NCBI RefSeq assembly: GCF_032854445.1
Contig: NC_088295.1
Span: forward strand, 3,476,501-3,540,500
Reading direction: 5' to 3'
DNA from: Liolophura sinensis
Lineage: Eukaryota; Mollusca; Polyplacophora; Chitonida; Chitonidae
DNA: 64,000 nt
Notes under the pieces: generated by a model
Told to the model about the DNA's origin: nothing
The model's database searches: none
Seen by the model: only the letters and a program-made list of their open reading frames with translations
Made by a program: the position numbers and the translations under genes
Part shown: one piece after another, positions 288 to 48,106 of the stretch
Layout: each line of letters starts with the position of its first letter
How positions within the stretch are numbered: position 1 is the stretch's first letter

Positions 288-3200
288 ATCCCCAATCATG
301 ACAGCCTTGTCAATGGAAACTCCTAATTCATCCAAAGCTGAGGTAAAAAATGAGGCCTCTGGTTTCCCCACAACTTCTGCAGTGACACCAGCAGCATACT
401 CAAGTCCTGCCACAAATGGTCCTAAAGTCACAAGAAAACACTTCATCTCGCTTAATAATATCAATGAAAGACCGCAGAACAATGGCCAACTTACAAGACC
501 TAGCATATTGTGTAACTACTGCGTAATTTGTGGAAATGTTGATTTTACCTGAAACTTAACAACATAGTTTATTTAGTAACAAGGATCACCTAAAAAGAAT
601 GCTTGGAATCTGTTGTCAGAATTCAAGTGCAAAACCAATTAAGCCAGCAAGAATAACCCCTTTACATTCTGTATTTCTGTTTTCCTTATTTTGCCTCGAT
701 AATCATCAGAAATAAAAAAGAAAATATTTGAGCATTACTGACAAACCTGGCCCAAGGGCTAGTCCATCAGATCTCCTGTAGTATCTTGCCTTATGAATGC
801 CAATGAGAGGTGCTCCTGTTAGAAGTAGCCTGAAACACAAGATGCATGTCACTGATGATAACACCCTATCCCATGGTCAACAGGAGCCTAACACATGAGG
901 TACATGTCACTGATGATAAAACCCTATCCCATGGTCAACAGGAGCCTAACACATGAGGTACATGTTACTGATGATAACACCCTAGTCCACAGTCAACAGG
1001 AGCTTAACACATGAGGTATATGTCACTGATGATAACACCCTAGTCCACTGTCAACAGGAGCTTAACACATGAGGTACATGTCACTGATGATAAAACCCTA
1101 TCCCACAGTCAACAGGAGCCTAACACACGAGGTACATGTTACTGATGATAACACCCTAGTCCATAGTCAACAGGAGCCTAACACACGAGGTACATGTTAC
1201 TGATGATAACACCCTATCCCACAGTCAACAGAAGCCCAACACATGAGGTACATGTCACTGATGATAATACCCTAGTCCACAGTCAACAGGAGTGTAACAC
1301 ATGAGGTACATGTCACTGATGATAATACCCTAGTCCACAGTCAACAGGAGTGTAACACATGAGGTACATGTCACTGATGATAACACCCTATCCCACAGTC
1401 AACAGGAGCCTAACACACGGGGTACATGTTACTGATGATAACACCCTAGTCCACAGTCAACAGGAGCCTAACACATGAGTCAACAGGAGTCTAACACACG
1501 AGGTACATCTCACTGATGATAACACCCTATCCCATGGTTAACAGGAGCCTAACACAAGAGGTACATGTTACTGATGATAACACCCTAGTCCATAGTCAAC
1601 AGGAGCCTAACACATGAGGTACATATCACTGATGATAACACCCTAGTCAACAGGAGCCTAACACATGAGGTATATGTCACTCATGATAACACCCTAGTCC
1701 ACAGTCAACAGGAGCCTAACACATGAGGTACATGTCACTGATGATAACACCCTATCCCATGGTCAACAGAAGCCTGAAACATGAGGTACATGTCACTGAT
1801 GATAACACCCTATTCCATGGTCAACAGGAGCCTAACACACGAGGTACATGTTACTGATGATAACACCCTATCCCATGGTCAACAGGAGCCTAACACATGA
1901 GGTACATGTTACTGATGATAACACCCTAGTCCACAGTCAACAGGAGCGTAACACACGACGTACATGTCACTGATGATAACACCCTAGTCCACAGTCAACA
2001 GGAGCCTAACACATGAGGTACACGTCACTGATGATAACACCCTAGTCCACAGTCAACAGGAGCTTAACACATGAGGTACATGTCACTGATGATAACACCC
2101 TATCCCATGGTCAACAGGAGCCTAACACACGAGGTACATGTCACTGATGATAATACCCTAGTCCACAGTCAACAGGAGCCTAACACATGAGTCAACAGGA
2201 GCCTAACACACGAGGTACGTGTCACTGATGATAACACCCTAGTCCACAGTCAACAGGAGCCTAACACATGAGGTACATGTCACTGATGATAACACCCTAT
2301 CCGATGGTTAACAGGAGCCTGAAACATGAGGTACATGTTACTGATGATAACACCCTAGTCCACAGTCAACAGGAGCCTAACACACGAGGTACGTGTCACT
2401 GATGATATCACCCTAGTCCACAGTCAACAGGAGCTTAACACATGAGGTACATCTCACTGATGATAACACCCTATCCCATGGTCAACAGGAGCCTAACACA
2501 CGAGGTACATGTTACTGATGATAACACCCTATCCCATGGTCAACAGGAGCCTAACACATGAGGTACATCTCACTGATGATAACACCCTATCTGATGGTCA
2601 ACAGAGGCCTAACACATGAGGTACATGTCACTGATGATAACACCCTATCCGATGGTCAAAAGAGGCCTAACACATGAGGTACATGTCACTTATGATAACA
2701 CCCTATCCCACAGTCAACAGGAGCCTGAAACATGAGGTACATGTTACTGATGATAACACCCTAGTCCACAGTCAACAGGAGCCTAACACACGAGGTACGT
2801 GTCACTGATGATAACACCCTAGTCCACAGTCAACAGGAGCCTAACACATCAGGTACATGTCACTGATGATAACACCCTATCCCATGGTCAACAGGAGCCT
2901 AACACACGAGGTACATGTCACTGATGATAATACCCTAGTCCACAGTCAACAGGAGCTTAACACATGAGGTACATGTCACTGATGATAACACCCTATCCCA
3001 TGGTCAACAGGAGCCTAACACATGAGGTACATGTCACTGATGATAACACCCTATCCCATGGTTAACAAGAGCCTAACACACGAGGTACATGTCACTGATG
3101 ATAACACCCTAGTCCACAGTCAACAGGAGCCTAACACATGAGGTACATGTCACTGATGATATCACCCTATCCCAAGGTCAACAGGAGCCTAACACACGAG

Positions 3201-6200
3201 GTACATGTCACTGATGATAACACCCTATCCCATGGTCAACAGGAGCCTAACACATGAGGTACATGTTACTGATGATAACACCCTAGTCCACAGTCAACAG
3301 GAGCCTAACACATGAGGTACATGTTACTGATGATAACACCCTATCCCACAGTCAACAGGAGCCTAACACACGAGGTACATGTTACTGATGATCACACCCT
3401 ATCCCATGGTCAACAGGAGCCTAACACATGAGGTACATGTTACTGATGATAACACCCTAGTCCACAGTTAACAGGAGCCTAACACAGGAGGTACGTGTCA
3501 CTGATGATAACACCCTAGTCCACAGTCAACAGGAGCCTAACACATGAGGTACATGTCACTGATGATAACACCCTAGTCCACAGTCAACAGGAGCCTAACA
3601 CATGAGGTACATGTCACTGATGATAACACCCTATCCCATGGTCAACAGGAGCCTAACACATGAGGTACATGTTACTGATGATAACACCCTAGTCCACAGT
3701 CAACAGGAGCCTAACACATGAGGTACATGTCACTGATGATAACACCCTAGTCCACAGTCAACAGGAGCCTAACACATGAGGTACATGTCACTGATGATAA
3801 CACCCTATCCCATGGTCAACAGGAGCCTAACACATGAGGTACATGTCACTGATGATAACACCCTAGTCCACAGTCAACTGGAGCTTAACACACGAGGTAC
3901 ATGTCACTGATGATAATACCCTAGTCCACAGTCAACAGGAGCCTAACACATGAGTCAACAGGAGCCTAACACACGAGGTACGTGTCACTGATGATAACAC
4001 CCTAGTCCACAGTCAACAGGAGCCTAACACATGAGGTACATGTCACTGATGATAACACCCTATCCCATGGTTAACAGGAGCCTGAAACATGAGGTACATG
4101 TTACTGATGATAACACCCTAGTCCACAGTCAACAGGAGCCTAGCACACAAGGTACGTGTCACTGATGATAACACCCTATCCCACAGTCAACAGGAGCCTA
4201 ACACACGAGGTACATCTCACTGATGATAACACCCTATCCCATGGTCAACAGAAGCCTAACAGACGAGGTACATGTTACTGATGATAACACCCTAGTCCAC
4301 AGTCAACAGGAGCTTAACACACGAGGTACATGTCACTGATGATAATACCCTAGTCCACAGTCAACAGGAGCCTAACACATGAGTCAACAGGAGCCTAACA
4401 CACGAGGTACGTGTCACTGATGATAACACCCTAGTCCACAGTCAACAGGAGCCTAACACATGAGTCAACAGGAGCCTAACACATGAGGTACATGTCACTG
4501 ATGATAACACCCTATCCCAAGGTCAACAGGAGCCTAACACATGAGGTACATGTCACTGATGATAACACCCTATCCCATGGTTAACAGGAGCCTAACACAT
4601 GAGGTACATGTCACTGATGATAACACCCTAGTCAACAGGAGCCTAACACATGAGGTATATGTCACTCATGATAACACCCTAGTCCACAGTCAACAGGAGC
4701 CTAACACATGAGGTACATGTCACTGATGATAACACCCTATCCCAAGGTCAACAGGAGCCTAACACATGAGGTACATGTCACTGATGATAATACCCTAGTC
4801 CAAGGTCAACAGGAGCCTAACACATGAGGTACATCTCACTGATGATAACACCCTATCCCATGGTCAACAGGAGCCTGAAACATGAGGTACATGTTACTGA
4901 TGATAAAACCCTAGTCCACAGTCAACAGGAGCTTAAATCACGAGGTACATGTCACTGATGATAACACCCTAGTCCACAGTCAACAGGAGCCTAACACACC
5001 CTATCCCACGGTCAACAGAAGCCTGAAACATGAGGTACATGTCACTGATGATAACACCCTAGTCCATGGTCAACAGGAGCCTGAAACATGAAGTACATGT
5101 CACTGATGATAACACCCTAGTCCACAGTCAACAGGAGCCTAACACACGAGGTACATGTTACTGATGATAACACCCTAATCCATGGTCAACAGGAGCCTGA
5201 AACATGAGGTACATGTCACTGATGATAACACCCTAGTCCACAGTCAACAGGAGCCTAACACATGAGGTACATGTCACTGATGATAAAACCCTATCCCATG
5301 GTCAACAGAAGCCTGAAACATCCGGTACATGTCACTGATGATAACACCCTATCCCATGGTCAACAGGAGCCTAACACACGAGGTACATGTTACTGATGAT
5401 AACACCCTAGTCCACAGTCAACATGAGCCTAACACACGAGGTGCATGTCAGTGATGATAATACCATTCCCTGTGGTCAACAGAAGCCTGAAACATGAGGT
5501 ACATGTCACAGATGATGATACCATTCTCCGTGGTCAACAGAAGCCTGAAACATGAGGTATGTGTCACAGATGATGATACCATTCCTTGTGTCACAGATGA
5601 TAATACCATTTTTCATGGTCAACACAAGCCTGAAACATGAGATATGTGTCACTGAAGCCTGAAACAGGAGGTATGTGTCACTGATGATAATACCATTCTC
5701 TGTGGTCAACAGAAGCCTGAAACATGAGGTATCCACTGTCAACAGGAGCTTAACACATGAGGTACATGTCACTGATGATAAAACCCTATCCCACAGTCAA
5801 CAGGAGCCTAACACACGAGGTACATGTTACTGATGATAACACCCTAGTCCATAGTCAACAGGAGCCTAACACACGAGGTACATGTTACTGATGATAACAC
5901 CCTATCCCACAGTCAACAGAAGCCCAACACATGAGGTACATGTCACTGATGATAACACCCTATCCCATGGTCAACAGGAGCCTAACACATGAGGTACATG
6001 TTACTGATGATAACACCCTAGTCCACAGTCAACAGGAGCGTAACACACGACGTACATGTCACTGATGATAACACCCTAGTCCACAGTCAACAGGAGCCTA
6101 ACACATGAGGTACACGTCACTGATGATAATACCCTAGTCCACAGTCAACAGGAGCTTAACACATGAGGTACATGTCACTGATGATAACACCCTATCCCAT

Positions 6201-9200
6201 GGTCAACAGGAGCCTAACACACGAGGTACATGTCACTGATGATAATACCCTAGTCCACAGTCAACAGGAGCCTAACACATGAGTCAACAGGAGCCTAACA
6301 CACGAGGTACGTGTCACTGATGATAACACCCTAGTCCACAGTCAACAGGAGCCTAACACATGAGGTACATGTCACTGATGATAACACCCTATCCCATGGT
6401 CAACAGGAGCCTAACACATGAGGTACATGTTACTGATGATAACACCCTAGTCCATGGTCAACAGGAGCCTAACACATGAGGTACATCTCACTGATGATAA
6501 CACCCTATCCGATGGTCAACAGAGGCCTAACACATGAGGTACATGTCACTGATGATAACACCCTATCCCACAGTCAACAGGAGCCTAACACATGAGGTAC
6601 ATGTTACTGATGATAACACCCTATCCCACAGTCAACAGGAGCCCAACACATGAGGTACATGTTACTGATGATAACACCCTATCCCATGGTCAACAGGAGC
6701 CTAACACACGAGGTACATGTCACTGATGATAATACCCTAGTCCACAGTCAACAGGAGCTTAACACATGAGGTACATGTCACTGATGATAACACCCTATCC
6801 CATGGTCAACAGGAGCCTAACACATGAGGTACATGTCACTGATGATAACACCCTATCCCATGGTTAACAAGAGCCTAACACACGAGGTACATGTCACTGA
6901 TGATAACACCCTAGTCCACAGTCAACAGGAGCCTAACACATGAGGTACATGTCACTGATGATAACACCCTATCCCATGGTCAACAGGAGCCTAACACACG
7001 AGGTACATGTCACTGATGATAACACCCTATCCCATGGTCAACAGGAGCCTAACACATGAGGTACATGTTACTGATGATAACACCCTAGTCCACAGTCAAC
7101 AGGAGCCTAACACATGAGGTACATGTTACTGATGATAACACCCTATCCCACAGTCAACAGGAGCCTAACACACGAGGTACATGTTACTGATGATCACACC
7201 CTATCCCATGGTCAACAGGAGCCTAACACATGAGGTACATGTCACTGATGATAACACCCTAGTCCACAGTCAACAGGAGCCTAACACATGAGGTACATGT
7301 TACTGATGATAACACCCTAGTCCACAGTCAACAGGAGCGTAACACATGAGGTACATGTCACTGATGATAACACCCTAGTCCACAGTCAACAGGAGCCTAA
7401 CACATGAGGTACATGTCACTGATGATAACACCCTATCCCATGGTCAACAGGAGCCTAACACATGAGGTACATGTCACTGATGATAACACCCTAGTCCACA
7501 GTCAACTGGAGCTTAACACACGAGGTACATGTCACTGATGATAATACCCTAGTCCACAGTCAACAGGAGCCTAACACATGAGTCAACAGGAGCCTAACAC
7601 ACGAGGTACGTGTCACTGATGATAACACCCTAGTCCACAGTCAACAGGAGCCTAACACATGAGGTACATGTCACTGATGATAACACCCTATCCCATGGTT
7701 AACAGGAGCCTGAAACATGAGGTACATGTTACTGATGATAACACCCTAGTCCACAGTCAACAGGACCCTAGCACACAAGGTACGTGTCACTGATGATAAC
7801 ACCCTATCCCACAGTCAACAGGAGCCTAACACACGAGGTACATCTCACTGATGATAACACCCTATCCCATGGTCAACAGAAGCCTAACACACGAGGTACA
7901 TGTTACTGATGATAACACCCTAGTCCACAGTCAACAGGAGCTTAACACACGAGGTACATGTCACTGATGATAATACCCTAGTCCACAGTCAACAGGAGCC
8001 TAACACATGAGTCAACAGGAGCCTAACACACGAGGTACGTGTCACTGATGATAACACCCTAGTCCACAGTCAACAGGAGCCTAACACATGAGTCAACAGG
8101 AGCCTAACACATGAGGTACATGTCACTGATGATAACACCCTATCCCAAGGTCAACAGGAGCCTAACACATGAGGTACATGTCACTGATGATAACACCCTA
8201 TCCCATGGTTAACAGGAGCCTAACACATGAGGTACATGTCACTGATGATAACACCCTAGTCAACAGGAGCCTAACACATGAGGTATATGTCACTCATGAT
8301 AACACCCTAGTCCACAGTCAACAGGAGTGTAACACATGAGGTACATGTCACTGATGATAACACCCTATCCCAAGGTCAACAGGAGCCTAACACATGAGGT
8401 ACATGTCACTGATGATAATACCCTAGTCCAAGGTCAACAGGAGCCTAACACATGAGGTACATCTCACTGATGATAACACCCTATCCCATGGTCAACAGGA
8501 GCCTGAAACATGAGGTACATGTTACTGATGATAACACCCTAGTCCACAGTCAACAGGAGCTTAAAACACGAGGTACATGTCACTGATGATAACACCCTAG
8601 TCCACAGTCAACAGGAGCCTAACACACCCTATCCCACGGTCAACAGAAGCCTGAAACATGAGGTACATGTCACTGATGATAACACCCTAGTCCATGGTCA
8701 ACAGGAGCCTGAAACATGAAGTACATGTCACTGATGATAACACCCTAGTCCACAGTCAACAGGAGCCTAACACACGAGGTACATGTTACTGATGATAACA
8801 CCCTAATCCATGGTCAACAGGAGCCTGAAACATGAGGTACATGTCACTGATGATAACACCCTAGTCCACAGTCAACAGGAGCCTAACACATGAGGTACAT
8901 GTCACTGATGATAAAACCCTATCCCATGGTCAACAGAAGCCTGAAACATCCGGTACATGTCACTGATGATAACACCCTATCCCATGGTCAACAGGAGCCT
9001 AACACACGAGGTACATGTTACTGATGATAACACCCTAGTCCACAGTCAACATGAGCCTAACACACGAGGTGCATGTCAGTGATGATAATACCATTCCCTG
9101 TGGTCAACAGAAGCCTGAAACATGAGGTACATGTCACAGATGATGATACCATTCTCCGTGGTCAACAGAAGCCTGAAACATGAGGTATGTGTCACAGATG

Positions 9201-12200
9201 ATGATACCATTCCTTGTGGTCAACAGAAGCTTGTAACATGAGTCATGTGTCACAGATGATAATACCATTTTTCATGGTCAACACAAGCCTGAAACATGAG
9301 ATATGTGTCACTGAAGCCTGAAACAGGAGGTATGTGTCACTGATGATAATACCATTCTCTGTGGTCAACAGAAGCCTGAAACATGAGGTATGTGTCACAG
9401 ATGATGATACCATTTTCCATGGTCAACAGAAGCCTGAAACATGAGATATGTGTCACTGAAGCCTGAAACAGGAGGTATGTGTCACTGATGATAATACCAT
9501 TCTCCGTGGTCAACAGAAGCCTGAAACATGAGGTATGTGTCACAGATGATAATACCATTGTCCATGGTCAACAGAAGCCTGAAACATAAGGTACGTGTCA
9601 CAGATGTTGATACCATTCCTCGTGGTCAACAGAAGCCTGAAATAGGAGGTATGTGTCACAGATGATGATACCACTCTCCATGGTCAACAGAAGCCTGAGA
9701 CATGAGATATGTGTCACTGAAGCCTGAAACAGGAGGTATGTGTCACTGATGATAATACCATTCTCTGTGGTCAACAGAAGCCTGAAACATGAGGTATGTG
9801 TCACAGATGATAATACCATTTTCCATGGTCAACAGAAGCCTGAAACATGAGATATGTGTCACTGAAGCCTGAAACAGGAGGTATGTGTCACTGATGATAA
9901 TACCATTCTCTGTGGTCAACAGAAGCCTGAAACATGAGGTATGTGTCACTGATAATGATACCATTCTCCATGATTGTTGTGTAATCCCGTACTCAAGAAT
10001 CCTTCACTTACATGATGGCAGCTAGTTTTATAGCATCTATAACTGCTCCTTGTAGCTGTACTGTAACTACTGGATGTGTGCAGCTACCCAGCACTCTGCA
10101 CAGCATCCACCTTTACAGGGAGATAACTCCTGAGGTAAACTATGCATGACAATCCACACATTCAATTTCTACAACTAACAACAGATGCTAAAGCACACAC
10201 TATGCAGATAGTTTGCAAGTAGTTGTTGATTTTTGTATTTTTTTTTATTATTTTTACTTTATGTAGACTTGTTTGGAGCATAATTTTGGCATTTTCACTA
10301 CAATGTTTTCTCTTCCAGTTTTATCTGTGTTGAGATTAGCTACCAATTGTTTCATTTTCTTACCCTACAATTCCTCTTAACTTATTTAAAAAGTAAAAAT
10401 CAGAGAAAATTATTCCATCTGGCTACCTCATGCAAGCTATGTGATATAAAACCATCAACAAGAGATCTCACCGAAAAGCCTTGTTCATCTGCGAGTAGTT
10501 GAACTGACTGGGTGCTAATCCAACGACAACAGCATTGGGGGTGTCCTGAGCCACACCTTTGGAGATACAACAATAAAGTACCAGCATGAAAATTGTGAAC
10601 ATGAATTACAGAAATGGACTCACAAAATATTGTTTCTTAACCACAATAAAATAAGTCTAATACTCTTGAGTATTAGAGTATACTACGTGTATATCTAATT
10701 GGTTTGAATGTATACATGCATATGAAATAATACATCAATAGTGCATTGCAGGATGGGATATCAGGACGGGATATCAGGAATTGTCAGCTCCAGAGAAGTG
10801 ATGTTCAATGAGTCCCTGAATTTGTATGTCATTGCTCAGCTAGACATCATTTGGATGTTTACTTTACCAATAAGCAGACATTAGAGAGCAAGCAAAGGGA
10901 TATCACTGCTGTAGAGGAAATACATGTGATTGCTGGACATTAGCACAAGATCGATGGCTTTTGCCTTGTGAATATGAGAAATTATTATACAAGCGGAATG
11001 TTGCTTTGCTTGAGTGCGTTATTGGTGTACATCACGTTTTGCAGATGATCATTTGACTGTGTACTGACTATTGGAAACCAAGCATCTCCATGAGAAACAA
11101 TAATATGTAATGACGAATGATGTATAATTATGAATATGTATAATTATTGTATCATAAACGCAATCTTATGATTGACTAGAGTCTAGACGTCATGGCTCAT
11201 GTTGATGTGCAGAAAACAATCCGTGTACGAAAGCCAACAATATAGGCAATTTTCATGTAAACATTCACTTTAATGATTCGTGTAGAATACCGTTCAGAGC
11301 AAAACCTCATATTTACAATCAAAATACTCTTTTGTTTTCTAGAAGAATACATGTGAGTTATTTGAACAATGATGTTAAGAATTACAAAGATGTCTGCATG
11401 GCCTAGTGATTAGCATGCTTGCACAACTCAATAACCCTGGAGCCTCTCACCAATTTTTCCTTCCCATCACCATCGTGTAAGTTACATATTCTCTGTTAAG
11501 TCTGGAGTAAAACTTCAATCAAATAAATAGATAAATAAACACGAGTTACCAACAAAATCTTCTTTGGCCGTGTCCTCTAGCAGCAGCATAGGTTGGAGTT
11601 TCCTATGCTCTACAAGGCACCTGGCAGCTGTTAGTGAAGTGAAAATCTCTTCAGGTTTAATATCAAAGCCCAGTCCGTGTAGTCTCTCCACCAAATGTTG
11701 CTTACACTCTTTTGTTGTATTGGTTACAAACTTGATCTTGATCTCTGACTTTCTTAATCTGAAAGTGAACAGATATCCAGTGAATTATCTTCATGTACAA
11801 CAGTAACAAGAAAACATCAATGTAAAAAAGATCAGTATACATGTAGCAATAATGGGACATCCAGTCTGTGTATATTCCATCCATACATGTAGCAACAATG
11901 GGACATCCAGTCTGTGAATATTCCGTCCATACATGTAGCAATAATGGGACAACCAGTCTGTGTATATTCCATCCATACATGTAGCAATAATGGGACAACC
12001 AGTCTGTGTATATTCCGTCCATACATGTAGCAATAATGGGACAACCAGTCTGTGTATATTCTGTCCATACATGTAGCAATAATGGGACAACCAGTCTGTG
12101 TATATTCAATCCATACATCATAATCATGATAAAACAACATATACCATTAGGTCAACCTTTTAGTTACAGACCTAACTATTCTCATCTCAGGTGTACAATT

Positions 12201-13069
12201 TAGTTACAGACCTAACTATTCTCACCTCAGGTGTACAATTTAGTTACAGACCTAACTATTCTCACCTCAGGTGTACAATTTAGTTACAGACCTAACTATT
12301 CTCACCTCAGGTGTACAATCTAATTATCACGGCCTCTAGGATTTGAGGGAAATGTATCATACATACAGTAAACTTTTGCTTTTTAATTGTTTCTTATCTT
12401 TATGCAATCAAAGAGATCCAGACATAGTACCTTTTGATACACCCAGTATATGCTATGAAATTATATAGTATCACTGTTTTACTGTCACACGCACTGAATG
12501 CCTTTCACTGCAGATCAACCAAGGTGCGTCAAGTATAGTGACAAAGTGGAGGGCGGCTGCTTGATGATCCCTGCTCTGTCGTCATGTTTTCCCCTCTCAT
12601 AACCACTCTAGATCAGCTGAAAACTTCTGACCCACCTATTGATCAAGGTCTTCATAATCAAATGATAACGTTTTTATTGTACCAAGCGGTCAAGATTTAA
12701 TAACATATTTCTATATACCCAGCCCCACTTCCATGAGGAAACTCAACAGTTATCTCCCCCTAGTCCAACCAACTTAAACACCAATGGTTCTATCAACTGC
12801 CATTTATGAATGACGATTGATTTACTTCGTCACGATTTAATGCCTTATAACTGTTCTTCTACACTCTCTTAAGGAAATATTTTATAAGATAATCTTAATA
12901 AAAAAAGTATGAATGGTGCACGCTACAAAAGTAAAGCGCCAACTCAACTGCAGACTCTGGCATTACTGGCCTACCGTTGAAGAGCCTTCACAGATCCCGG
13001 GACTACGGCATCTTCCACGTGCAATGTGCCGCTTAAATCAACCAAGGCAGCTTCTATTTTACTGCTCAT
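288..13069 (-). CDS. HDHD2: HDHD2, HAD-like hydrolase domain-containing protein 2 (3' end outside window)
   Basis: Coding exons in transcript order are 13069-12975, 11758-11550, 10556-10472, 829-747 and 421-288. All have AG/GT borders and phases that join without a break into 202 residues; human HDHD2 is about 259, so the last ~57 lie left of the window. HAD motif I is DLSGT near residue 11, with Ser in place of the second Asp, as in vertebrate HDHD2. Motif II is FVTNTT, the motif III lysine is in VVGKP, and motif IV begins as MIGD at the last border. The cap region includes [19 protein letters not shown] and [12 protein letters not shown]2 is a poorly characterised cytosolic-type phosphatase; similarity here is clearly higher to HDHD2 than to LHPP. 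The start ATG at 13069 opens the conserved N-terminus; an in-frame ATG at 13165 would add 32 residues. Intron 3 (830-10471) is almost entirely a 58-bp tandem array. Confidence 0.93.
830..9972. repeat. 58-bp minisatellite filling HDHD2 intron 3
   Basis: About 155 head-to-tail units of roughly 58 bp, each with GATGATAACACCCTA, then a block reading either AGTCCACAG or TCCCATGG, then GTCAACAGGAGCC and GAGGTACATGT. Two main unit types are intermixed. A third type (ATACCATTCTC, GTCAACAGAAGCCTGAAAC) occupies 5450-5735 and 9080-9972. The first unit overlaps the exon 4 acceptor at 823-832. The array contains a multi-kb internal duplication (see findings). It has no coding significance. Confidence 0.97.
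9973..10471. other. HDHD2 intron 3, unique remainder
   Basis: Non-repetitive, AT-rich intron sequence between the end of the 58-bp array and exon 3. I see no exon, RNA gene or mobile element in it. Confidence 0.7.
10557..11391. other. HDHD2 intron 2, unique sequence
   Basis: AT-rich intron between exons 3 and 2, continuing to 11549 through a SINE copy. There is a short doublet, GGATATCAGGA, near 10755-10775. Nothing else is recognised. Confidence 0.65.
11392..11540 (+). mobile_element. Short tRNA-headed SINE copy, internally deleted
   Basis: It begins with a tRNA-like A-box region (GGCCTAGTGATTAGCATGCT) and includes GGAGCCTCTCACCAA, which is also found in the fuller SINE copies at 42259-42503. 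It ends with AAACTTCAATCAAATAAATA, the same style of A-rich tail. The B-box part is missing or degenerate. It lies in HDHD2 intron 2, opposite to the gene. Confidence 0.65.
11838..12120. repeat. 46-bp minisatellite in HDHD2 intron 1
   Basis: Six units of 46 bp with key blocks ACATGTAGCAATAATGGGAC and CAGTCTGTGTATATTC. Because 46 is not a multiple of 3, the same unit is read in all three frames, which produces overlapping spurious reading frames on the minus strand. It starts about 80 bp upstream (in transcript terms) of the exon 2 acceptor. Confidence 0.93.
12157..12320. repeat. 40-bp minisatellite, four copies
   Basis: Four nearly identical 40-bp units: TTTAGTTACAGACC, then AACTATTCTCACC, then TCAGGTGTACAA. 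Copies start at 12161, 12201, 12241 and 12281. The first unit differs by one base (CTCATC for CTCACC). Read on the HDHD2 sense strand, the later copies contain a donor-like CTGAG|GTGAGA. Confidence 0.95.
12321..12974. other. HDHD2 intron 1, unique part
   Basis: Ordinary intron sequence between the 40-bp array and the exon 1 donor (12973-12974). No repeats or RNA genes recognised. Confidence 0.6.
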
Positions 13070-13886
13070 GGCACGTCTGCCGGGCAGACTTATGGTCAAA
13101 GTACTGTACCAGCTTTTAAAAACTAATAATTTCGATCTGACATCAGTCCAGGCACTCCGGTGCATTTGGCGAAATTGCAGCTGGCGCTCTTCTGTTTCTG
13201 AAGTTAACAAATGAGGCCTTGCAAACAGTGGGGTAAGACGTTCATCAGTTCACGTGGCCATTCACACAGACTGTGATAGGTGGTTCCTGTACGGAAAAGG
13301 TTTGTACCTCACGGATAACTGTACATATATCACTGAGAATGTGCTAAAATTCCAGAGCTTACATTCCTCAGTTAGGTCGTTTATTTTATAACCACCTAAC
13401 CTGTTTCGAATAGGTAACGGAAACTGGTATCTGTATGACTGTTAATTCAGATATAGCCTCGAAAGACTCCAACTCCTTTTCTCATACTCGGCTGGCGTCG
13501 TTGGAGTTTCAACGCTTACAGTGCTAATTTCATACTCAACCAATGTCCAGGCCGACTGTCGTTGTCATCGAACAAGTCTCGTGCAAGTAAAAGACACCAA
13601 CCTAAAACCCTGCTTTCCACACCCACCGCACTGCCACTGTTATGTCCTTAGTCGATTTGGAATAGGGTTAAAACGAAATAGGCAAAGCCTAAGACCGAAC
13701 ATAGTGTGTATCCCTAGGGTATCTATACTGTTTTAGGCAAATTAAAAATAAAATGTTATCTACATTTTACAACAGCCAAAATAGTAAACAAAGAATGTGT
13801 CAAATGTGTATTTGTGTTGTTGCATGAAGAATTAAAAGGAGGGCAACAGGGGAAAAAATAATAATTTTGGAAGTCATTGATTTATC
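13070..13886. promoter_or_regulatory. Divergent HDHD2 / AEN-like upstream region
   Basis: The HDHD2 start codon (13069, minus) and the AEN-like gene (plus) face away from each other, so their 5' ends must lie between about 13.07 and 14.96 kb. No TATA box or CpG-rich core was convincing, and no non-coding first exon could be placed. A shared bidirectional promoter is inferred only from the layout. Confidence 0.35.
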
Positions 13887-14961: not shown

Positions 14962-17900
14962 AAACCTGAAACCTTCATTGAGGGGCATCTCGTGTTCACA
15001 GTAACCTGTATTAAGATGTTACCACTGTGTATTCTAGCTGATAGTGATATAGATGAAGAGGAACTGAAGCCTGTCATACTGAAGATCCAGAAAAAGTTAC
15101 GCAAAGCTAAAAAGAGGAAAAGAGCCTCAGATTCTGTCAAATCTTATGATGGTTGTTTGTGCAATCAGCTGGAACCTCATAGATGTATTTCTGGCAGTGT
15201 GTCCAACCCCAGTGATTCTGGCACGCATGAGGATATGAAAGTGGCTGGTGAAGGCACTGACAGTGGACATACAACGAATGTGACATTACGTAACCTCAGG
15301 CTAGCTCAGTCTGATCGTGAAAAGGTTAAATCATCAGACGTTTACACCTGCTTGACTTGTACGTGTAACCATGCTTTTCTTGCAAAGCGTCAGAAGTTGA
15401 CTATCAATGGAGAGTTCTCGAAAGAAAGAAACTCAATTCGCCGAACTTGTGATCGCAAAAACACTGAAAATACCTTTGTATGTGGAGCGTCTGTATCAGA
15501 GAGTGTGATCTCTGAACCTGAGGCTAATGCTGTTGAACCCTCTCACATCACCATCATAGACCCCAGCGAGCCTGCCAACCTGGTGGCCCTGGATTGTGAA
15601 TTTGTAGGAGTAGGCCCTAGAAAAACCAGTGCTTTAGGTAAATATTGACTCTTTTCAGATATTTTGTTTTGCCTTTACATTTACCAGTCTGGTAATAATG
15701 TAGCCTTTTGTTGTAATTTTTGCTACATGGTAGACTTACTTGTGATATTCTATTTTAATACATGTAAAATAATCTTTAATGTAACCGTGGACATTTTGAT
15801 GACTATCTTTATACTCGCTGATTGAGGAATAATATTTATTATTACATGTATTTACATTTGTCAGTCGTTTCATTGTTAAATGCTCTCTGAAAAGAAGTGT
15901 GAAGTTGTAAAGCTGTGTAGAGTTACTCTGCTTTAGTGATCACTCATATATCCTAAACTGAAGGACAGCACCTGGCTAATGTTTAAGTCTGCTGAAATAC
16001 TATGATTTAAAGTATCTCAAACCGGCATTAAATATTTTCTTAGATTTTTTTTTTTCAACCCAGTAAGGTTTAGTGAAACTTCATCTTGACACAGCTTCAG
16101 CACATCTCCATTATCAAGAGCAAGATGATCTGTCCTGTTTACACTAGCTCTCTAACATTGAAGGTATTGGTATAGAATAGTCTAAGCAGTAGCCTGTGGC
16201 AGATATGAATTGTGGACTTTGGCAATGAAGGCCCAAGTGATAAATATAATTTTCTTGGAAAGTAGACATACTGGAAGAATATTTCTTCCACTGCTTGAAC
16301 TGTTGATACAGTAGGCCTACTACACTGTATATCATTTACAAGGAATTCCAGCGACCCTGTTTAAATAGCCTGGCTGCAGATGCACAGCCAGCCACTTCTG
16401 GGTAATTCAGGGGGTTGTGCAGATGATTTTGACCCCAGTTAAATGTTTTCAAAATTGCAATAGGATTGTTGTACAACTACATGTATAGATTCATGGTCAA
16501 TTCTGAGAGTGAGTGAGTGAGTGCTTGGGGTTTAACGTCGTACTCAGCAATTTTTCAGTCATATGACGACGAAGGAATCCTTAGGGTGCATGTACGTGTA
16601 ATGTGCCTCCTTGTTGCAGGACGGATTTCCACCGCTCTTTTATTTAGTGCTGCTTCACTGAGACGACTTACCGAAGGCAAGTAAGCCGCCCTACCCGAGC
16701 CATTATACTGATACGGGTCAACCAGTCGTTGCACTATCCTCTTCATGCTGAACACCAAGCGAGGAAGTTACAACTTCCTCTTTTAAAGTCTTAGGTGTGA
16801 CTCGATCAAGGATTGATCCTGGACCTGAAGCAGACGCTCTACCAACTGTGCTATTTAATTCTGAGAGAAATGGTAGATAAATCAAAGCACCACTGGGGCT
16901 GATGAAAGCATTCGATTGTCGCTGGATTTTATACTTCAGTTTTGTAGTGGTGGCTTCTAAGATGAAAGCAGTGCTGACCTAGTTTTCACAGACCTCAGAG
17001 AAGCATCTCGGCTTGAAGATGAGGTTTCAATAATTTTACTGTATTTTATAAAGTAAAACAGAAAAAAACATCCCTTGTATGCAAGAAAGACGAAGGAATA
17101 AATTTTAATGTCTTTGGTTGTAATAAATTCAGAGAGAAAAAAATTCTATCGTAGGATTTAATTAACTTTAAGCATTGCCTGGTGAGATGCCATCTTCTTA
17201 TTCCCTTGAACCTTGGGCATCCCTAATGAATTTTGCTCTGACTGTGATATTTGTTATTTAGAAACTGCTGACGAAAGGCTAAAATGAATGACAAAAATGT
17301 ATTTGTTGCTTTGGTCGAGATGGTATGCCGCTGTCTGACATAATTTCTGACACCATCGTTAAATATTGCACGGCATGTGAATCAAATGGTTTTACATCTA
17401 TGGTGGTCCATAAATGACACAGACCTGCCTCTGAACCCATTGTGAAATGGCCCTTGGGCTGCATGTAGCTAAATACTTGTGAACGATCTCCAAGTGGTGC
17501 TTTATGCAGGAGTTTTGTGTTGTCATATGGCACTTCATGGAGTGCATGGGTAAAGGCTATACATCTCAGCTTAGGTGACTCAGTCTGATAGAAACGTGTT
17601 TGACTGGATAAATTTCTCAAGATGGCTGCCTCAGCTCACATCAGCCATTTGTACAGTAATGTCATTTTGTTCTACATGTTATTTGGTGAAATCTAATTAA
17701 AATACTAAAGTATGATACTTTTCAGAAAGCTTGAATATCCTTCTTTCGATAGAATTAAATTTTAGCCAGTTGCTGTCTTGTTCTTTAAAAAAAACACCTT
17801 TGCAGACTAACATTCAATCACCAACTTTGGATAACTGTTGGGGGTTGGGAATTGTGAGAATTTGATTGAAATGCTAATTTTATGGAAATGCTAATTTAGA

Positions 17901-20900
17901 TTATTTGGGAAAATATTGTGCTTTATCTCTGATTGTCACAGATTGTGATTTTGGGATAATGATCTGCTTATCTGTATCCATTCTCAGGACGTTGTTCTAT
18001 AGTGGATTTCCATGGCAATGTGATACTGGATATCTATGCCCTCCCCGATGAAGATATCACAGACTACAGAACCCGCTGGAGTGGAATTCGCAAAAAACAC
18101 ATGCTGTCTGCTGTGCCATTCAAGTGTGCCAGAGCAGCCATCCTCAGTGCTATAAAGGTATGTCTGAGCAGGTAGCATCCCAGCTGTCTTGTTTTGTTAC
18201 CATCTTATGATAGGTATATGTTTGTGTCTGATTTATTGCTGTGTTGTCTCTGCTAGTAGTCTACTGTCTGAGTTCTGTCATTATCAGTGTGACTGCCTTA
18301 ACACTACATCTGTGCTTGCCTGGCAGAGTGGTTCCTGGTTAATATAGCCGTTGACTCAAATGACGTGTCTGTGTTTTCTTCAGTAGAATGGTTTCTGGTT
18401 AATACAGCCATCGACCCAAAGGACATGTCTGTGTTTTCATCAGTAGAATGGTTTCTGGTTAATATAGCCATTGACCCAAAGGGCTTGTCTGTGTTTTCAT
18501 CATTAGAATGGTTTCTGGTTAATACAGCCATCAACCCAAAGGACGTGTCTGTTTTTCATCAGTAGAATGGTTTCTGGTTAATATAGCCATTGACCCAAAG
18601 GGCGTGTCTGTGTTTTCATCATTAGAATAGTTTCTGGTTAATACAGCCATCGACCCAAAGGGTGTGTCTGTGTTTTCATCAGTAGAATGGTTTCTGGTTA
18701 ATACAGCCATCGACCCAAAGGGTGTGTCTGTGTTTTCATCAGTAGAATGGTTTCTGGTTAATACAGCCATCGACCCAAAGGGTGTGTCTGTGTTTTCATC
18801 AGTAGAATGGTTTCTGGTTAATATAGCCATTGACCCAAAGGGTGTGTCTGTGTTTTCATCAGTAGAATGGTTTCTGGTTAATACAGCCATCGACCCAAAG
18901 GGTGTGTCTGTGTTTTCATCAGTAGAATGGTTTCTGGTTAATATATCTGTTGACCCAAAGGGCTTGTCTGTGTTTTCATCATTTGAATGGTTTCTGGTTA
19001 ATATAGCCATCGACCCAAAGGACGTGTCTGTGTTTTCATCAGTAGAATGGTTTCTGGTTAATACAGCCATCAACCCAAAGGGTGTGTCTGTGTTTTCATC
19101 AGTAGAATGGTTTCTGGTTAATATAGCCATTGACCCAAAGGGCTTGCCTGTGTTTTCATCAGTAGAATGGTTTCTGGTTAATAAATCCGTTGACACAAAG
19201 GGCGTGTCTGTGTTTTCATCAGTAGAATGGTTTCTGGTTAATATATCTGTTGACCCAAAGGACGTGTCTGTGTTTTCATCATTTGAATGGTTTATGGTTA
19301 ATATATCCGCTGATTCAAAGGGCGTGTCTGTGTTTTCATCAGTAGAATGGTTTCTGGTTAATAAATCCGTTGACACAAAGGGCGTGTCTGTGTTTTCATC
19401 AGTAGAATGGTTTCTAGTTAATATATCTGTTGACCCCAAGGGCTTGTCTGTGTTTTCATCATTTGAATGGTTTATGGTTAATATATCCGCTGATTCAAAG
19501 GGCGTGTCTGTGTTTTCATCAGTAGAATGGTTTCTGGTTAATAAATCCGTTGACACAAAGGGCGTGTCTGTGTTTTCATCAGTAGAATGGTTTCTAGTTA
19601 ATATATCTGTTGACCCCAAGGGCTTGTCTGTGTTTTCATCAGTAGAATGGTTTCTGGTTAATATATCCGTTGACCCAAAGGGCGTGTCTGTGTTTTCATC
19701 ATTTGAATGGTTTCTGGTTAATATATCCGTTGACCCAAAGGGCGTGTCTGTGTTTTCATCAGTAGAATGGTTTCTGGTTAATATAGCCATTGACCCAAAG
19801 GGCGTGTCTGTGTTTTCATCAGTAGAATGGTTTCTGGTTAATACAGCCATCAACCCAAAGGGTGTGTCTGTGTTTTCATCAGTAGAATAGTTTCTGGTTA
19901 ATATATCCGTTGACCCAAAGGGCATGTCTGTTTTTCCATCATTTGAATGGTTTCTGGTTAATATATCTGTTGACCCAAAGGGCTTGTCTGTGTTTTCATC
20001 AGTAGAATGGTTTCTGATTAATATATCCATTGACCCAAAGGGCGTGTCTGTGTTTCCATCATTTGAATGGTTTGTGGTTAATATATCCGTTGACCCAAAG
20101 GGCGTGTCTGTGTTTTCATCAGTAGAATGGTTTCTGGTTAATATATCCGTTGACCCAAAGGGCATGTTTATGTTTTCATCAGTAGAATGGTTTCTGGTTA
20201 ATACAGCCATCAACCCTAAGGTCGTGTCTGTTTGTCATAGAAGAATGGTTTTTGATTAGAATGGTTTCTTGTTATTTAAACCACGAATTGCATGGTGCAA
20301 TGGTTTATTGCTGTAACTGTTCTCTAAAGGCATACTGAGCTTGTCTGGTGGTTTCGTGTGTAGACGTTTGCACTTGTACACAGAATTGTATTAGATTCTA
20401 ATTTATCTGCTTATTACTGTTCATTCCTTTATGTTTTGTTTTTTGGTCTGGCAGGACAAAATTGTGATAGGTCATGCCCTTTTCAATGACTTTAACGTCC
20501 TCAACATCCAGCACCCATGGGGACATGTTCGTGACACTGCCAATTACAAGCCCCTGAGGATGAGGAGTAACCATGGTGATGGGCAGAGAGTGTCATTGAA
20601 GAGACTTACTAAGGCTTTATTAGGTAACTGTCTCCCTATTATATACTCTGTGTTGATTTTACCACAACTACAAAAAGTACAGCCACAGTGATCAACAGAC
20701 ATACGTAAATTTTGTGAAACATTAATACATTAGAATAATACATAATACTACATAACAGTAAATTAGAAATGGTACTTGTTGAGAGTTTAGAGCAAGGAAA
20801 CAGGACTGGTTGGCCTGTGTCAGCACAATGTGACTGGGTGTAGTGTCATGTCCATTATGTTCGGCATGATTCTTGACTGACAGCAGCACTTTGGCTGCAG

Positions 20901-21499
20901 GGAGTTGCCCTGCCAGACGAAGAAACAATGTATGTGCACATACCTAATGACTACTCATCATCATATGACTGAGAAATTGTCAAGTATGACATAAACCCTG
21001 AGTATAAACCCTGGTAAGAGACCCACGACCATCCGCAGGTTGCTGAGAGACCATGCCACATACGGCCTGAGAGGAAGCCAGCACAAGCTGGACTTGAACT
21101 CGCAGCAGCCACATTGGTCAGAGGCTTCTGGGTCATTGCGTCGCACTGGCATGCTAATGGCCTCTGCTATGGAGGCCCCTAGACAGTTTTGTTTCATTCT
21201 TTTGTTACACCCAGAATCATAAGTTTATTTTCTGTATCCTTTTACACTTGGTAGACAGGGACATTCAAACTGGAGAGCATTGCTCAAGTGAAGATGCTCG
21301 TGCAGCGCTTGACCTCTACAAGCTTGTCCAATCAGAATGGGAAGAGATGTTATTGAGTAGGAAGGCGCGACGCTGTCATAGAACGGTGACTGTACCTCCC
21401 AGACAACGGTCGTTGGATAACTACAGCAAGTCCTACTTGGGGGATGAGTTCTGGCCGTCCCACCTATTTGAGCTCTCTGGTCATAGCCAAGCCTTATGA
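14962..21499 (+). CDS. AEN: AEN/ISG20L2-like DEDDh 3'-5' exonuclease
   Basis: Coding exons: about 14962 (or 15016/15038) to 15637, 17988-18157, 20455-20623 and 21255-21499 (TGA). All internal borders are GT/AG and phases agree. From the first in-frame ATG (15016) the product is 401 residues. A basic cluster [11 protein letters not shown] (residues 26-36) looks like a nuclear or nucleolar signal. The exonuclease domain shows motif I LDCEFVG (Asp193, Glu195), the family hallmark [14 protein letters not shown], motif [10 protein letters not shown] (His271, Asp276) and motif III HCSSEDA (His329, Asp334), so all DEDDh residues are present. The C-terminal [11 protein letters not shown] resembles the end of vertebrate AEN, which favours AEN over ISG20L2; one ancestral gene for both is likely. 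Expected role: nuclear 3'-5' RNA/DNA exonuclease. The true 5' end is uncertain: acceptors at 14961 and 15037 are both possible. Intron 3 holds the 60-bp array. Confidence 0.9.
15638..17987. other. AEN-like intron after first recognised exon
   Basis: A 2.35-kb intron from donor 15638 (GTAAAT) to acceptor CTCAG at 17987. It contains one full SINE copy at 16503-16857; the rest is unique AT-rich sequence. A 113-codon open frame on the minus strand (17620-17279) has no recognised similarity. Confidence 0.75.
16503..16857 (-). mobile_element. tRNA-derived SINE, family B, near full length
   Basis: Read on the minus strand it starts with a tRNA-like head: A box TAGCACAGTTGGTAGAGCG and a B-box-like GGATCAATCC. 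A body of about 250 bp follows (AAGAGGAAGTTGTAACTTCC, then GAGCGGTGGAAATCCGTCC). The tail is CATATGACTGAAAAATTGCT, then ACGACGTTAAACCCC, then a (CACT)n run. A second copy lies at 52229-52570. No protein is encoded. It resembles SINEs known to be widespread in molluscs; I cannot assign the exact family name. Confidence 0.85.
18322..20270. repeat. 60-bp minisatellite in AEN-like intron
   Basis: About 32 units of exactly 60 bp with blocks GTGTCTGTGTTTTCATCAG, TAGAATGGTTTCTGGTTAAT and GACCCAAAGG. The variable part is ATAGCCATT, ACAGCCATC, ATATCCGTT or AAATCCGTT. The unit lacks stops in one frame on each strand, so it is open for 560 codons on the minus strand and 408 on the plus strand. It lies wholly between donor 18158 and acceptor 20454 of the exonuclease gene, so it is intronic. 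Each unit contains an acceptor-like TTTTCATCAG on the sense strand. Confidence 0.97.
20953..21180 (-). mobile_element. SINE copy with family A body and family B-like tail
   Basis: Body blocks CCCACGACCATCCGCAGGTT, GAGAGGAAGCCAGC and GGACTTGAACTCGCAG (B box in reverse) match family A at 42259-42503. The plus-strand left end CATATGACTGAGAAATTGTC is the tail of family B (16503-16857). It sits in the last intron of the AEN-like gene, on the opposite strand. Confidence 0.75.
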
Positions 21500-21773: not shown

Positions 21774-24350
21774 GTCAGGCACCCGGTGGGCTGCTGTTAC
21801 CTCCATGCCCTCCCTGGTTTCCTCTACCATAGCTCTGTCTGAGCTTTGGCGGGTACCTGGTGTGGTCCAGTGGTTACCACCAGGCTTTGCTTGATTTCCT
21901 CTACCACAGCTCTGTCAGAGTTTTGTCGGGCACTGCCAAGCTCTGTTTGGTTTCCTCTACCATAGCTTTGTCTGGGCTCTGTCGGGCACCCAGTGAGGTG
22001 CTGTGGTTACCTACAGGCCCTGCCTGGTTTCCTCTACCATAGCCCTGTCTGAGCTTTGTCAGGCACCTGGTGTGGTTCAGTGGTTTTTTCCAGGCTCTGC
22101 TTGGTTTCCTCTACCATAGCCATGTCTGAGCTTTGTCAGGCAGCTGGTGAGGTGCTGTGGTTACCTGCATGCTCTGCTTGATTTCCTCCACCCAAAACCC
22201 TATCTGAGCTTTGTCAGGCACCTGGTAAAGTGCTGTGATAACCTCCAGGCTCTGCTTGGTTTTCTCTACCATAGCCCTCTCTGAACTTTGTCGGGCACCT
22301 GGTGAAGTACTGTGGTTTCCTCTACCATAGCCTTGTCTGAGCTTTGTCGGGCACCTGGTGAAGTACTGTGGTTACCTCCAGGCACGGCTTGGTTTTCTCT
22401 ACCTTAGCCCTCTCTGAACTTTGTTGGCCACCTGGTGAGGTGCTGTGGTTACCTCCAGGCTTTGCTTGGTTTCCTCTACCATAGCTCTGTCTGTGTTTTG
22501 TCAAGCACCTGGTCGGTTCCAGTGGTTACCTCCAGGCTTTGCTTGGTTTCCTCTACCATAGCTCTGTCTGTGTTTTGTCAAGCACCTAGTGAGGTGCTGT
22601 GGTTACCTCCAGGCTTTGCTTGGTTTCCTCTACCATAGCTCTGTCTGAGCTTTGTCGGGCACCTGGTGAGGTGCTGTGGTTACCTCCAGGCTCTGATTGG
22701 TTTCCTCTACCATAGCCTTGTCTGAGCTTTGTCGGGCACCTGGTAAAGTGCTGTGGTTACCTCCAGGCTTTGCTTGGCTTACTCTACCATAGCTCTGTCT
22801 GAGTTTTGTTGGGCACTGCAATGCTCTGTTTGGTTTCCTCCACCATGGCCCTGGCTGACCTTTGTCAAGCACCTGGTGTGGTCCAGTGGTTACTTCCAGG
22901 CTCTGCTTGGTTCCCTCTACCATAGCCATGTCGAGCACCTGGTGAGGTACTGTGGTTACCTCCAGGCATGGCTTGGTATCCTCTACCTTAGCCCGCTCTG
23001 AGCTTTGTCGGGCACCTGGTGAGGTGCTGTGGTTACCTCCAGGCTTTGGTTTCCTCCACTCATAATACTGTCCAAGCTTGTCAAGCACCTGGTCGGTTCC
23101 AGTGGTTACCTCCAGGCTTTGCTTGATTTCCTCTACCATAGCGCTGTCTGGGCTTTGTCAGGCACCTGGTGGGGTGCTGTGGTTACCTCCAGGCTCTGCT
23201 TGGTTTCCTCTACCATAGCCCTCTCTGAGCTTTGTCGATACCTGGTGAAGTGCTGTGGTTTCCTCTACCATGGCCTTGTCTGAGCTTTGTCGGGCACCTG
23301 GTGAGGTGCTGTGGTTACCTCCAGGCATTGCTTGGTTTTCTCTACCTTAGTCCTCTCTGAGCATTGTCGGGCACCTGGTGAGGTGCTGTGGTTACCTCCA
23401 GGCTTTGCTTTGTTTCCTCCACTCGTAACACTGTCCAAGCTTGTCAAGCACCTGGTCAGTTCCAGTGGATACTGCCAGGTTTTGCTTGGTTTCCTCTACC
23501 GTAGCCCTGTCTGAGCTTTGTCGGTCACCTGGTGAGGTGCTGTGGTTACCTCTAGGCTTTACTTGGTTTCCTCTACTACAGCTCTGTCTGAGTTTTGTCG
23601 GCACCTAGTGAGGTGCTGTGGTTACCTCTAGGCTTTGCTTGGTTTCCTCTACCATAGCCCTGTCTGAGCTTTGTCGGACACCTGGTGAGGTGCTGTGGTT
23701 ACCTCTAGGCTTTGCTTGGTTTCCTCTACCATAGCCCTGTCTGAGTTTGTTCGGACACCTGGTGAGGTGCTGTGGTTACCTTTAGGCTTTGCTTGGTTTC
23801 CTCTACCATAGCCCTGTCTGAGTTTGTTCGGACACCTGGTGAGGTGCTGTGGTTACCTCTAGGTTTTGCTTGGTTTCCTCTACCATAGCCCTGTCTGAGT
23901 TTTGTTGGACACCTGGTGAGGTGCTGTGGTTACCTCCATGGTTTTCTCTACCATAGCCCTCTCTGAGCTTTGTCGGGCACCTGGTGAGATGCTGTGGTTT
24001 CCTCTACCGTAGCCCTGTCTGAGCTTTGTCGGTCACCTGGTGAGGTGCTGTGGTTACCTCTAGGCTTTATTTGGTTTCCTCTACTATAGCTCTGTCTGAG
24101 TTTTGTCGGCACCTAGTGAGGTGCTGTGGTTACCTCTAGGCTTTGCTTGGTTTCCTCTACCATAGCCCTGTCTGAGCTTTGTCGGACACCTGGTGAGGTG
24201 CTGTGGTTACCTCCAGGCTCTGCATGGTTTTCTCTACCATAGCCCTCTCTGAGCTTTGTCGGGCACCTGGTGAGATGCTGTGGTTTCCTCTACCATAGCC
24301 CTCTCTGAGCTTTGTCGGGCACCGCCAGGCTCTGTTTGGTTTCCTCTCCA
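21774..24350. repeat. 77-bp minisatellite downstream of AEN-like gene
   Basis: About 33 units of roughly 77 bp with blocks GTTACCTCCAGGCTTTGCTT, GGTTTCCTCTACCATAGC, CTGTCTGAGCTTTGTCGG and GCACCTGGTGAGGTGCTGTG. Units vary in length by deletion of parts. Short reading frames in it on both strands are repeat artefacts. Confidence 0.96.
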
Positions 24351-25165
24351 TGTCCTCAAACTTCCGTACATATAGCCTCAGTGGATGTCCCCAAACTTCC
24401 CTGTATATAGTCTCAGCTGGTGTCTCCAGACTACCCTGTATATAGTCTCAGCTGGTGTCTCCAGACTTCCCTGTATATAGTCTCAGCTGGTGTCTCCAGA
24501 CTACCCTGTATATAGTCTCAGCTGGTGTCTCCAGACTACCCCGTATATAGTCTCAGCTGGTGTCTCCAGACTTCCCTGTATATAGTCTCAGCTGGTGTCT
24601 CCAGACTACCCTGTATATAGTCTCAGCTGGTGTCTCCAGACTACCCTGTATATAGTCTCAGCTGGTGTCTCCAGACTACCCTGTATATAGTCTCAGCTGG
24701 TGTCTCCAGACTACCCTGTATATAATCTCAGCTGGTGTCTCCAGACTACCCTGTATATAGTCTCAGCTGGTGTCTCCAGACTACCCTGTATATAGTCTCA
24801 GCTGGTGTCTCCAGACTTCCCTGTATATAGTCTCAGCTGGTGTCTCCAGACTACCCTGTATATAGTCTCAGCTGGTGTCTCCAGACTACCCTGTATATAG
24901 TCTCAGTTGATCTGTCTCCAAACTTCCCTGTATATAGTCTCAGCTGGTGTCTCCAGACTACCCTGTATATAGCCACAGTTGATCTGTCTCCAAACTTCCC
25001 TGTATATAGCCTCAGCTGGTGTCTCCAGACCTCCCTGTATATAGCCTCAGTCGATGTCCCCAAACTTCCCTGTATATAGTCTCAGTTAGTGTCTCCAGAC
25101 TACCCTGTATATAGCCACAGTTGATCTGTCTCCAATCCTCTTGTGCATATGGCCTCAACAGGTCT
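24345..25165. repeat. 35-bp minisatellite
   Basis: About 22 units of 35 bp with blocks GTCTCCAGACTACCCTGTAT and ATAGTCTCAGCTGGT, directly adjoining the end of the 77-bp array. Later units (24900-25165) diverge to ATAGCCACAGTTGATCTGTC. Each unit can fold into a short stem (AGTCT..CTGG / CCAG..AGACT). Confidence 0.96.
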
Positions 25166-47975: not shown

Positions 47976-48106
47976 CTTGCTATCACAGTGACTTCTACTG
48001 TCAGTAAGTGAGTTGTCCAAGCAACGTCTTAACTTCCCGTATAAAGCTTAACTCCCGTGCCTCTTATACAACATGGTAGCTTTTAGTTTTGGTGGGTATA
48101 TCCAGT

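Follow-up and report, generated by a model that had tools for sequence, protein, structure and literature searches.

Minisatellites that extend across intron-exon borders are known from amphioxus, where they have been named mirages. In the parts of the published accounts cited here, mirages are described in the genes for Adh3, globins BflGb6 and BflGb9, troponin C, and PGBD5 (PMC3087553, PMC3902484), and their first description, in amphioxus Adh, is credited to earlier work cited in PMC3902484. The intronic array analyzed here, located in the HDHD2 gene of a chiton, a marine mollusc, and several other arrays from the same genome resemble mirages, as presented in those parts, in having a minisatellite-like unit across the border and AG or GT signals in many units, on the acceptor as well as the donor sides of exons. 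In BflGb6, the boundary of the cluster lies outside homogenization, similarly to what is proposed below for the HDHD2 border. The host, in contrast, is a mollusc, whereas the range given in the cited portions is that of cephalochordates; and whereas the BflGb6 haplotypes carry 6 and 3 units, HDHD2 has 158 rows at a single border, with an exon part that is short and eroded. The sequence-only reading of this locus knew of no described class of minisatellites seeded on splice acceptors; the amphioxus mirages, judging from the same portions, are that class. The HDHD2 array is a very large case of this known class, found in a phylum for which a literature search, restricted to open-licence papers, returned no report of border arrays. 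Lucina hemoglobin, considered as a molluscan precedent, was rejected as unrelated on the available part of its source.

Two less closely related systems can be compared. The Rogers model of intron gain by tandem genomic duplication, named in the cited part of PMC3087553, similarly involves a duplication that includes splice signals, but HDHD2 gains no intron; instead, an existing border is multiplied. Human internal tandem repeats that alter gene structure, to the extent covered in the opening of the abstract of PMC2812944, are alike in that repeats affect exon structure.

The chiton genome, first published as that of Liolophura japonica (PMC11068029, cited in part) and subsequently corrected to Liolophura sinensis (PMC12441733), was searched as 609,464,459 bases in 632 contigs. 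One of these contigs, C99, carries seven COX1 copies spaced by ∼15.5 kb, either a mitochondrial concatemer or an assembly artifact; the single mtDNA contig is C632, whose genes are arranged in an ancestral molluscan order. The window, i.e., the whole 64,000-nt stretch of DNA under study, contains five exons of HDHD2 on the minus strand, identified by tblastn with the human HDHD2 protein as the query. Among solved structures, the joined exons are closest to 3hlt (E = 1.3e-75) and 2ho4 (E = 7.2e-74), and they match the TIGR01458 profile with 236 bits, compared to the cut-off of 175.95. The coding part of exon 1 (positions 12974 to 13072) and exon 2 (11548 to 11760) are given as the extents of the tblastn matches. 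Exon 3 (10472 to 10556, acceptor placed by eye) ends in AAG GCT TTT CG/GTGAG (the slash marks the splice position) in phase 2, which is compatible with exon 4. The latter (747 to 829, 83 nt, with the donor GT placed by eye) starts with its first base at 829 and reads G/CTA CTT CTA ACA, encoding LLLT; the true acceptor AG is at 831-830. Exon 5 occupies positions 288 to 421, with borders placed by eye, and the remainder of the gene is outside the window. Intron 3, from the end of exon 3 at 10472 to the start of exon 4 at 829, is 9,642 bp long and consists mostly of a 58-bp array.

This array, a minus-strand minisatellite of 158 rows at 830 to 9972, was delineated by TRF and wrap-around alignment and fills nearly all of the intron; in being a tandem array of minisatellite size, it agrees with the definition of a mirage. 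TRF found a period of 58 bp, with rows that jointly cover 845-9972. Wrap-around alignment to one unit placed the 158 rows at 9865 to 824 on the minus strand, and the optimal alignment reaches six bases into exon 4. Part of the array has been copied in blocks, since at a shift of 3,628 bp (window positions 4001-9668) the self-identity over 4001-6040 is 83%, compared to 67% at adjoining unit shifts. The border piece has at least 71 matches in the genome, all of them at this single locus.

Tandem arrays, 15 of which were counted, make up ∼43% of the window. Comparison by eye of these arrays with the five HDHD2 exons and the four exons of an ISG20L2-like exonuclease gene (15580-21352, plus strand) detected array contact only at the HDHD2 exon 4 acceptor; the next-nearest array to an exon, at 11837, is ∼75 bp from HDHD2 exon 2. 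Downstream of the ISG20L2-like gene, a 77-bp array at 21815-24351 has a unit with an acceptor-like TTTCCTCTACCATAG followed, ∼27 nt on, by a donor-like CTG/GTGAGG. A 63-bp array (21 codons) at 40131-41721 enters an open reading frame (41667-41972) that reaches GGTAAGT; this array is perhaps another one at an exon border. A Pfam search with seven open reading frames of the window returned no match for six of them, including 41667-41972, and the window also contains a minus-strand exon (47550-48020) of a sodium:solute symporter (PF00474).

The last unit of the HDHD2 array is a full 58-bp copy (887 to 830, minus strand) that ends in TTTCAG, the true acceptor, and is identical to the consensus in 52 of 58 positions. 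The sequence-only reading, which had put a 58-bp minisatellite right at this splice site, was correct in that respect, and the intron side of the unit, including the splice signal, corresponds to that of mirages. All 6 differences fall in columns 44-56, beside the splice site, and columns 1-43 do not deviate from the consensus. The border shares its TTTCAG with units of the CAG type, the predominant type at the distal end of the array. The resemblance does not stop at the acceptor AG but covers a further ∼12 nt of exon 4: positions 818 to 829 (minus strand) match the exon part of the consensus unit in 8 of 12 bases and encode LLLT, as does the unit.

The earlier reading had made its claim conditional on the similarity at the border being better than chance. 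In an AG-anchored comparison over positions -16 to +12, excluding the AG itself, the true site matched the best array junction in 19 of 26 positions, compared to a maximum of 15 for 55 control acceptors, which were rule-picked candidates from other loci; some of these, located in kinase genes that have long open frames, may not be real acceptors. For the 12-nt exon part alone, the best and mean scores of the true site were 9 and 8.0, with control maxima of 7 and 5.9, respectively. The similarity of the exon-side DNA is weaker than proposed: the AG-anchored exon-side match has a P value of 0.013 when GCT is included and 0.3 when it is left out. At positions +4 to +12, the best score was reached by 3 of the 55 controls and the mean by none; support for these bases comes from the codon match described next. 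When exon 4 was aligned locally with one unit, the result did not rise above shuffled sequences; only the AG-anchored test is informative.

Read in the frame of the exon, the unit is G CTC CTG TTG ACC, which encodes LLLT in 135 of 145 ungapped rows. The chance of such a codon match is ∼8e-5 by composition and ∼9e-5 in a genome sample (9 of 99,662 G-led 12-mers); the match was spotted post hoc, with the frame and the anchor being fixed by the gene. All four exon 4 codons differ from the unit at their third positions. Together with the consensus-like first 43 columns, these differences indicate that the border and the rest of the last unit have had different histories. Both human and mouse HDHD2 carry LLL at this position, the mammalian sequence being LLLD, which indicates that this coding sequence predates the array. 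The combined comparisons support homology between the array and the exon 4 acceptor.

The sequence-only reading had left two origins open: either the array grew out of the splice site, or the exon border was replaced by an array unit. In the latter case, an intronic array of the ordinary sort, containing an acceptor-like motif, would have reached exon 4, to which one unit would have been fused by a deletion or exchange, with the loss of the old acceptor. The weak exon-side DNA similarity past 3 nt speaks for such a capture, as does another chiton array, at locus L043, whose edge lies exactly at the AG without a clear exon copy. However, capture does not explain why the unit should encode LLLT in the frame of the exon or share LLL with mammals, and clear exon copies in arrays at three other loci (L050, L056, and L071, described below) demonstrate seeding from exon to array in the same genome. 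We regard capture as distinctly unlikely. The codon match, the mammalian LLL, and the exon copies elsewhere favor growth of the array from the border.

We therefore consider it highly probable that the HDHD2 array is a mirage-type minisatellite that grew by tandem duplication from the exon 4 border. A stretch reaching from the end of intron 3 across the first 12 nt of exon 4, or more, would have been duplicated in tandem through a replication or recombination error. The copy adjoining the rest of exon 4 would have remained the working acceptor, and the inner copies, being now intronic, would have been free to expand to 158 rows via duplications of units and blocks. The border itself would be kept by selection, outside homogenization. 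This reading draws on the observed homology through the splice site, the codon match, the unit count, and recurrence at other chiton exons; from these, we infer the duplication steps and their order, as well as the last acceptor being the sole one used. The weak exon-side DNA match beyond GCT and the separate histories of the border and the rest of the unit count against it.

The earlier estimate of about 150 acceptor-like AG/GC copies was close: 140 unit ends of this type were counted, 104 with TAG and 36 with CAG. In the exon-proximal part of the array (887 to 1772, minus strand), all 10 AG/GC unit ends are of the weak TAG type, whereas in the distal part (8650 to 9972, minus strand) 20 of 24 have CAG, like the true site. 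The nearest AG/GC decoy is at 887, the nearest CAG decoy at 1773, and the nearest one that matches the score of the true site at 2318. Scoring of the units, proposed earlier as a check, employed a weight matrix built from 29 acceptors, 26 of them rule-picked. On this scale, the matrix acceptors average 6.9 (each left out in turn), the true site scores 4.7, and the decoys have means of -2.9 for TAG ends and 5.2 for CAG ends; 29 of the 140 equal or exceed the true site. The array contains 465 other AGs, the best of which score ∼8, above the true site; the second AG of the unit (TTATCATCAG followed by TGAC, e.g., at 909) scores 7.9. Since AGs outside the AG/GC unit ends outscore the true site, the matrix does not predict usage, and strength does not explain the choice of acceptor. 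By this score model, the below-average true site, the second AG of the unit, and several decoys at L050 and L056 that score no lower than their true sites would also count against the duplication reading. The presumed use of the last acceptor alone would probably be due to exon 4 being defined from its own donor, combined with the weakness of the nearest AG/GC decoys.

The prediction that decoy use would shift the reading frame was only partly borne out: the added length is a multiple of three for 50 of the 140 decoys, and the remainder shift the frame. All 140 lead to a stop codon before exon 4, at a median of 7 codons in. This uniform outcome and the 29 decoys that score no lower than the true site might suggest that the array regulates HDHD2 through poison acceptors that draw splicing, with the resulting RNA being destroyed. 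However, the AG/GC decoys closest to exon 4 are weak, and the authors of the mirage studies, in the cited parts of their papers, report or infer undisturbed regular splicing (PMC3087553, PMC3902484). Such a regulatory function appears very improbable.

Recurrence of this structure was assessed in 80 loci, of which 30 were drawn from 138 kinase matches and 50 from 80 mitochondrial-carrier matches, with 16 overlapping pairs. Tandem arrays occupy 5.5% of these loci (13,694 of 250,495 bases). Arrays with a period of at least 20 and at least 2.5 copies numbered 34, in 25 of the 80 loci, or 31 after removal of three that were counted twice. Five of the 31, in 4 of the 80 loci, are border arrays, at acceptors as well as donors, and three of them contain a clear exon copy of 27 to 70 nt; none was detected in the 30 sampled kinase loci. 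In these four loci, the borders were placed visually, guided by the protein match and the AG or GT. At L050, in a gene that we take to encode a citrate-carrier-like protein, a single exon (1511-1721) has border arrays at both ends: an acceptor array with a 56-bp unit that includes 27 exon nt (26 of 27 identical in the row alignment, counted by eye) and a donor array with a 74-bp unit and 8 exon nt by TRF or 14 by wrap-around alignment. The L056 acceptor array (65 bp, 23 rows) includes 40 exon nt, with 39 of 40 identical, and the L071 donor array (131 bp) includes 70, with 64 of 70 identical, both counted by eye. The L043 acceptor array (61 bp, 16 rows) ends exactly at the AG by wrap-around alignment, while its TRF edge stops 19 bp before the AG. 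Exon sequence within the unit, as in mirages, is thus clear at L050, L056, and L071, compared to 8 of 12 nt with LLLT, and a DNA match beyond GCT at P = 0.3, in HDHD2. These copies indicate that exon-to-array seeding occurs in the chiton genome, as judged by sequence comparison. In the score model, the true acceptor is equaled or surpassed by 4 of 8 decoys at L050 and by 7 of 20 at L056.

The border structure recurs in the chiton, which raises the question of why borders are struck. The somewhat favored answer, compatible with exon-to-array duplication, is that no targeting is involved: minisatellites would start at random in an array-rich genome, and those at splice borders would survive with one outer copy staying intact. 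The abundance of arrays in the window and in the sampled loci fits this view, as does the fact that donors are struck, too. Under lenient random placement, 2.1 border arrays were expected and 5 seen (P = 0.056). Under a stricter rule, requiring 10 bp or more inside the exon, the expectation was 1.4, compared to 4 counted by wrap-around alignment (P = 0.05) and 3 when the edges were taken from TRF (P = 0.16). However, these counts are 2.1 to 2.9 times the expectation, in a small sample and with test limits (70 bp inside, 20 outside) chosen after the cases were known. Given the donor arrays and counts that are not clearly above random expectation, the data show neither a preference for acceptors nor targeting of splice sites, with P values of 0.05 to 0.16 depending on the edge measure. 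It seems doubtful, albeit conceivable, that mirages are present in chiton genes in large numbers, with a border-tied process, such as co-transcriptional breaks at intron ends, seeding them above chance, and with the spliceosome in many genes selecting just the final one among 10 to 150 near-identical acceptors.

The HDHD2 array provides a useful natural test of acceptor choice. The same can be said of L050 and L056, where upstream copies of equal strength in the score model are spaced, in most cases, by one or two units, and where the last acceptor alone is presumably used. Border arrays could also supply the material from which new introns or exons arise, a proposal made by the authors of the amphioxus globin study in the cited part of PMC3087553. 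The chiton cases extend mirages from amphioxus to a mollusc, which suggests that such structures may originate wherever minisatellites are common.
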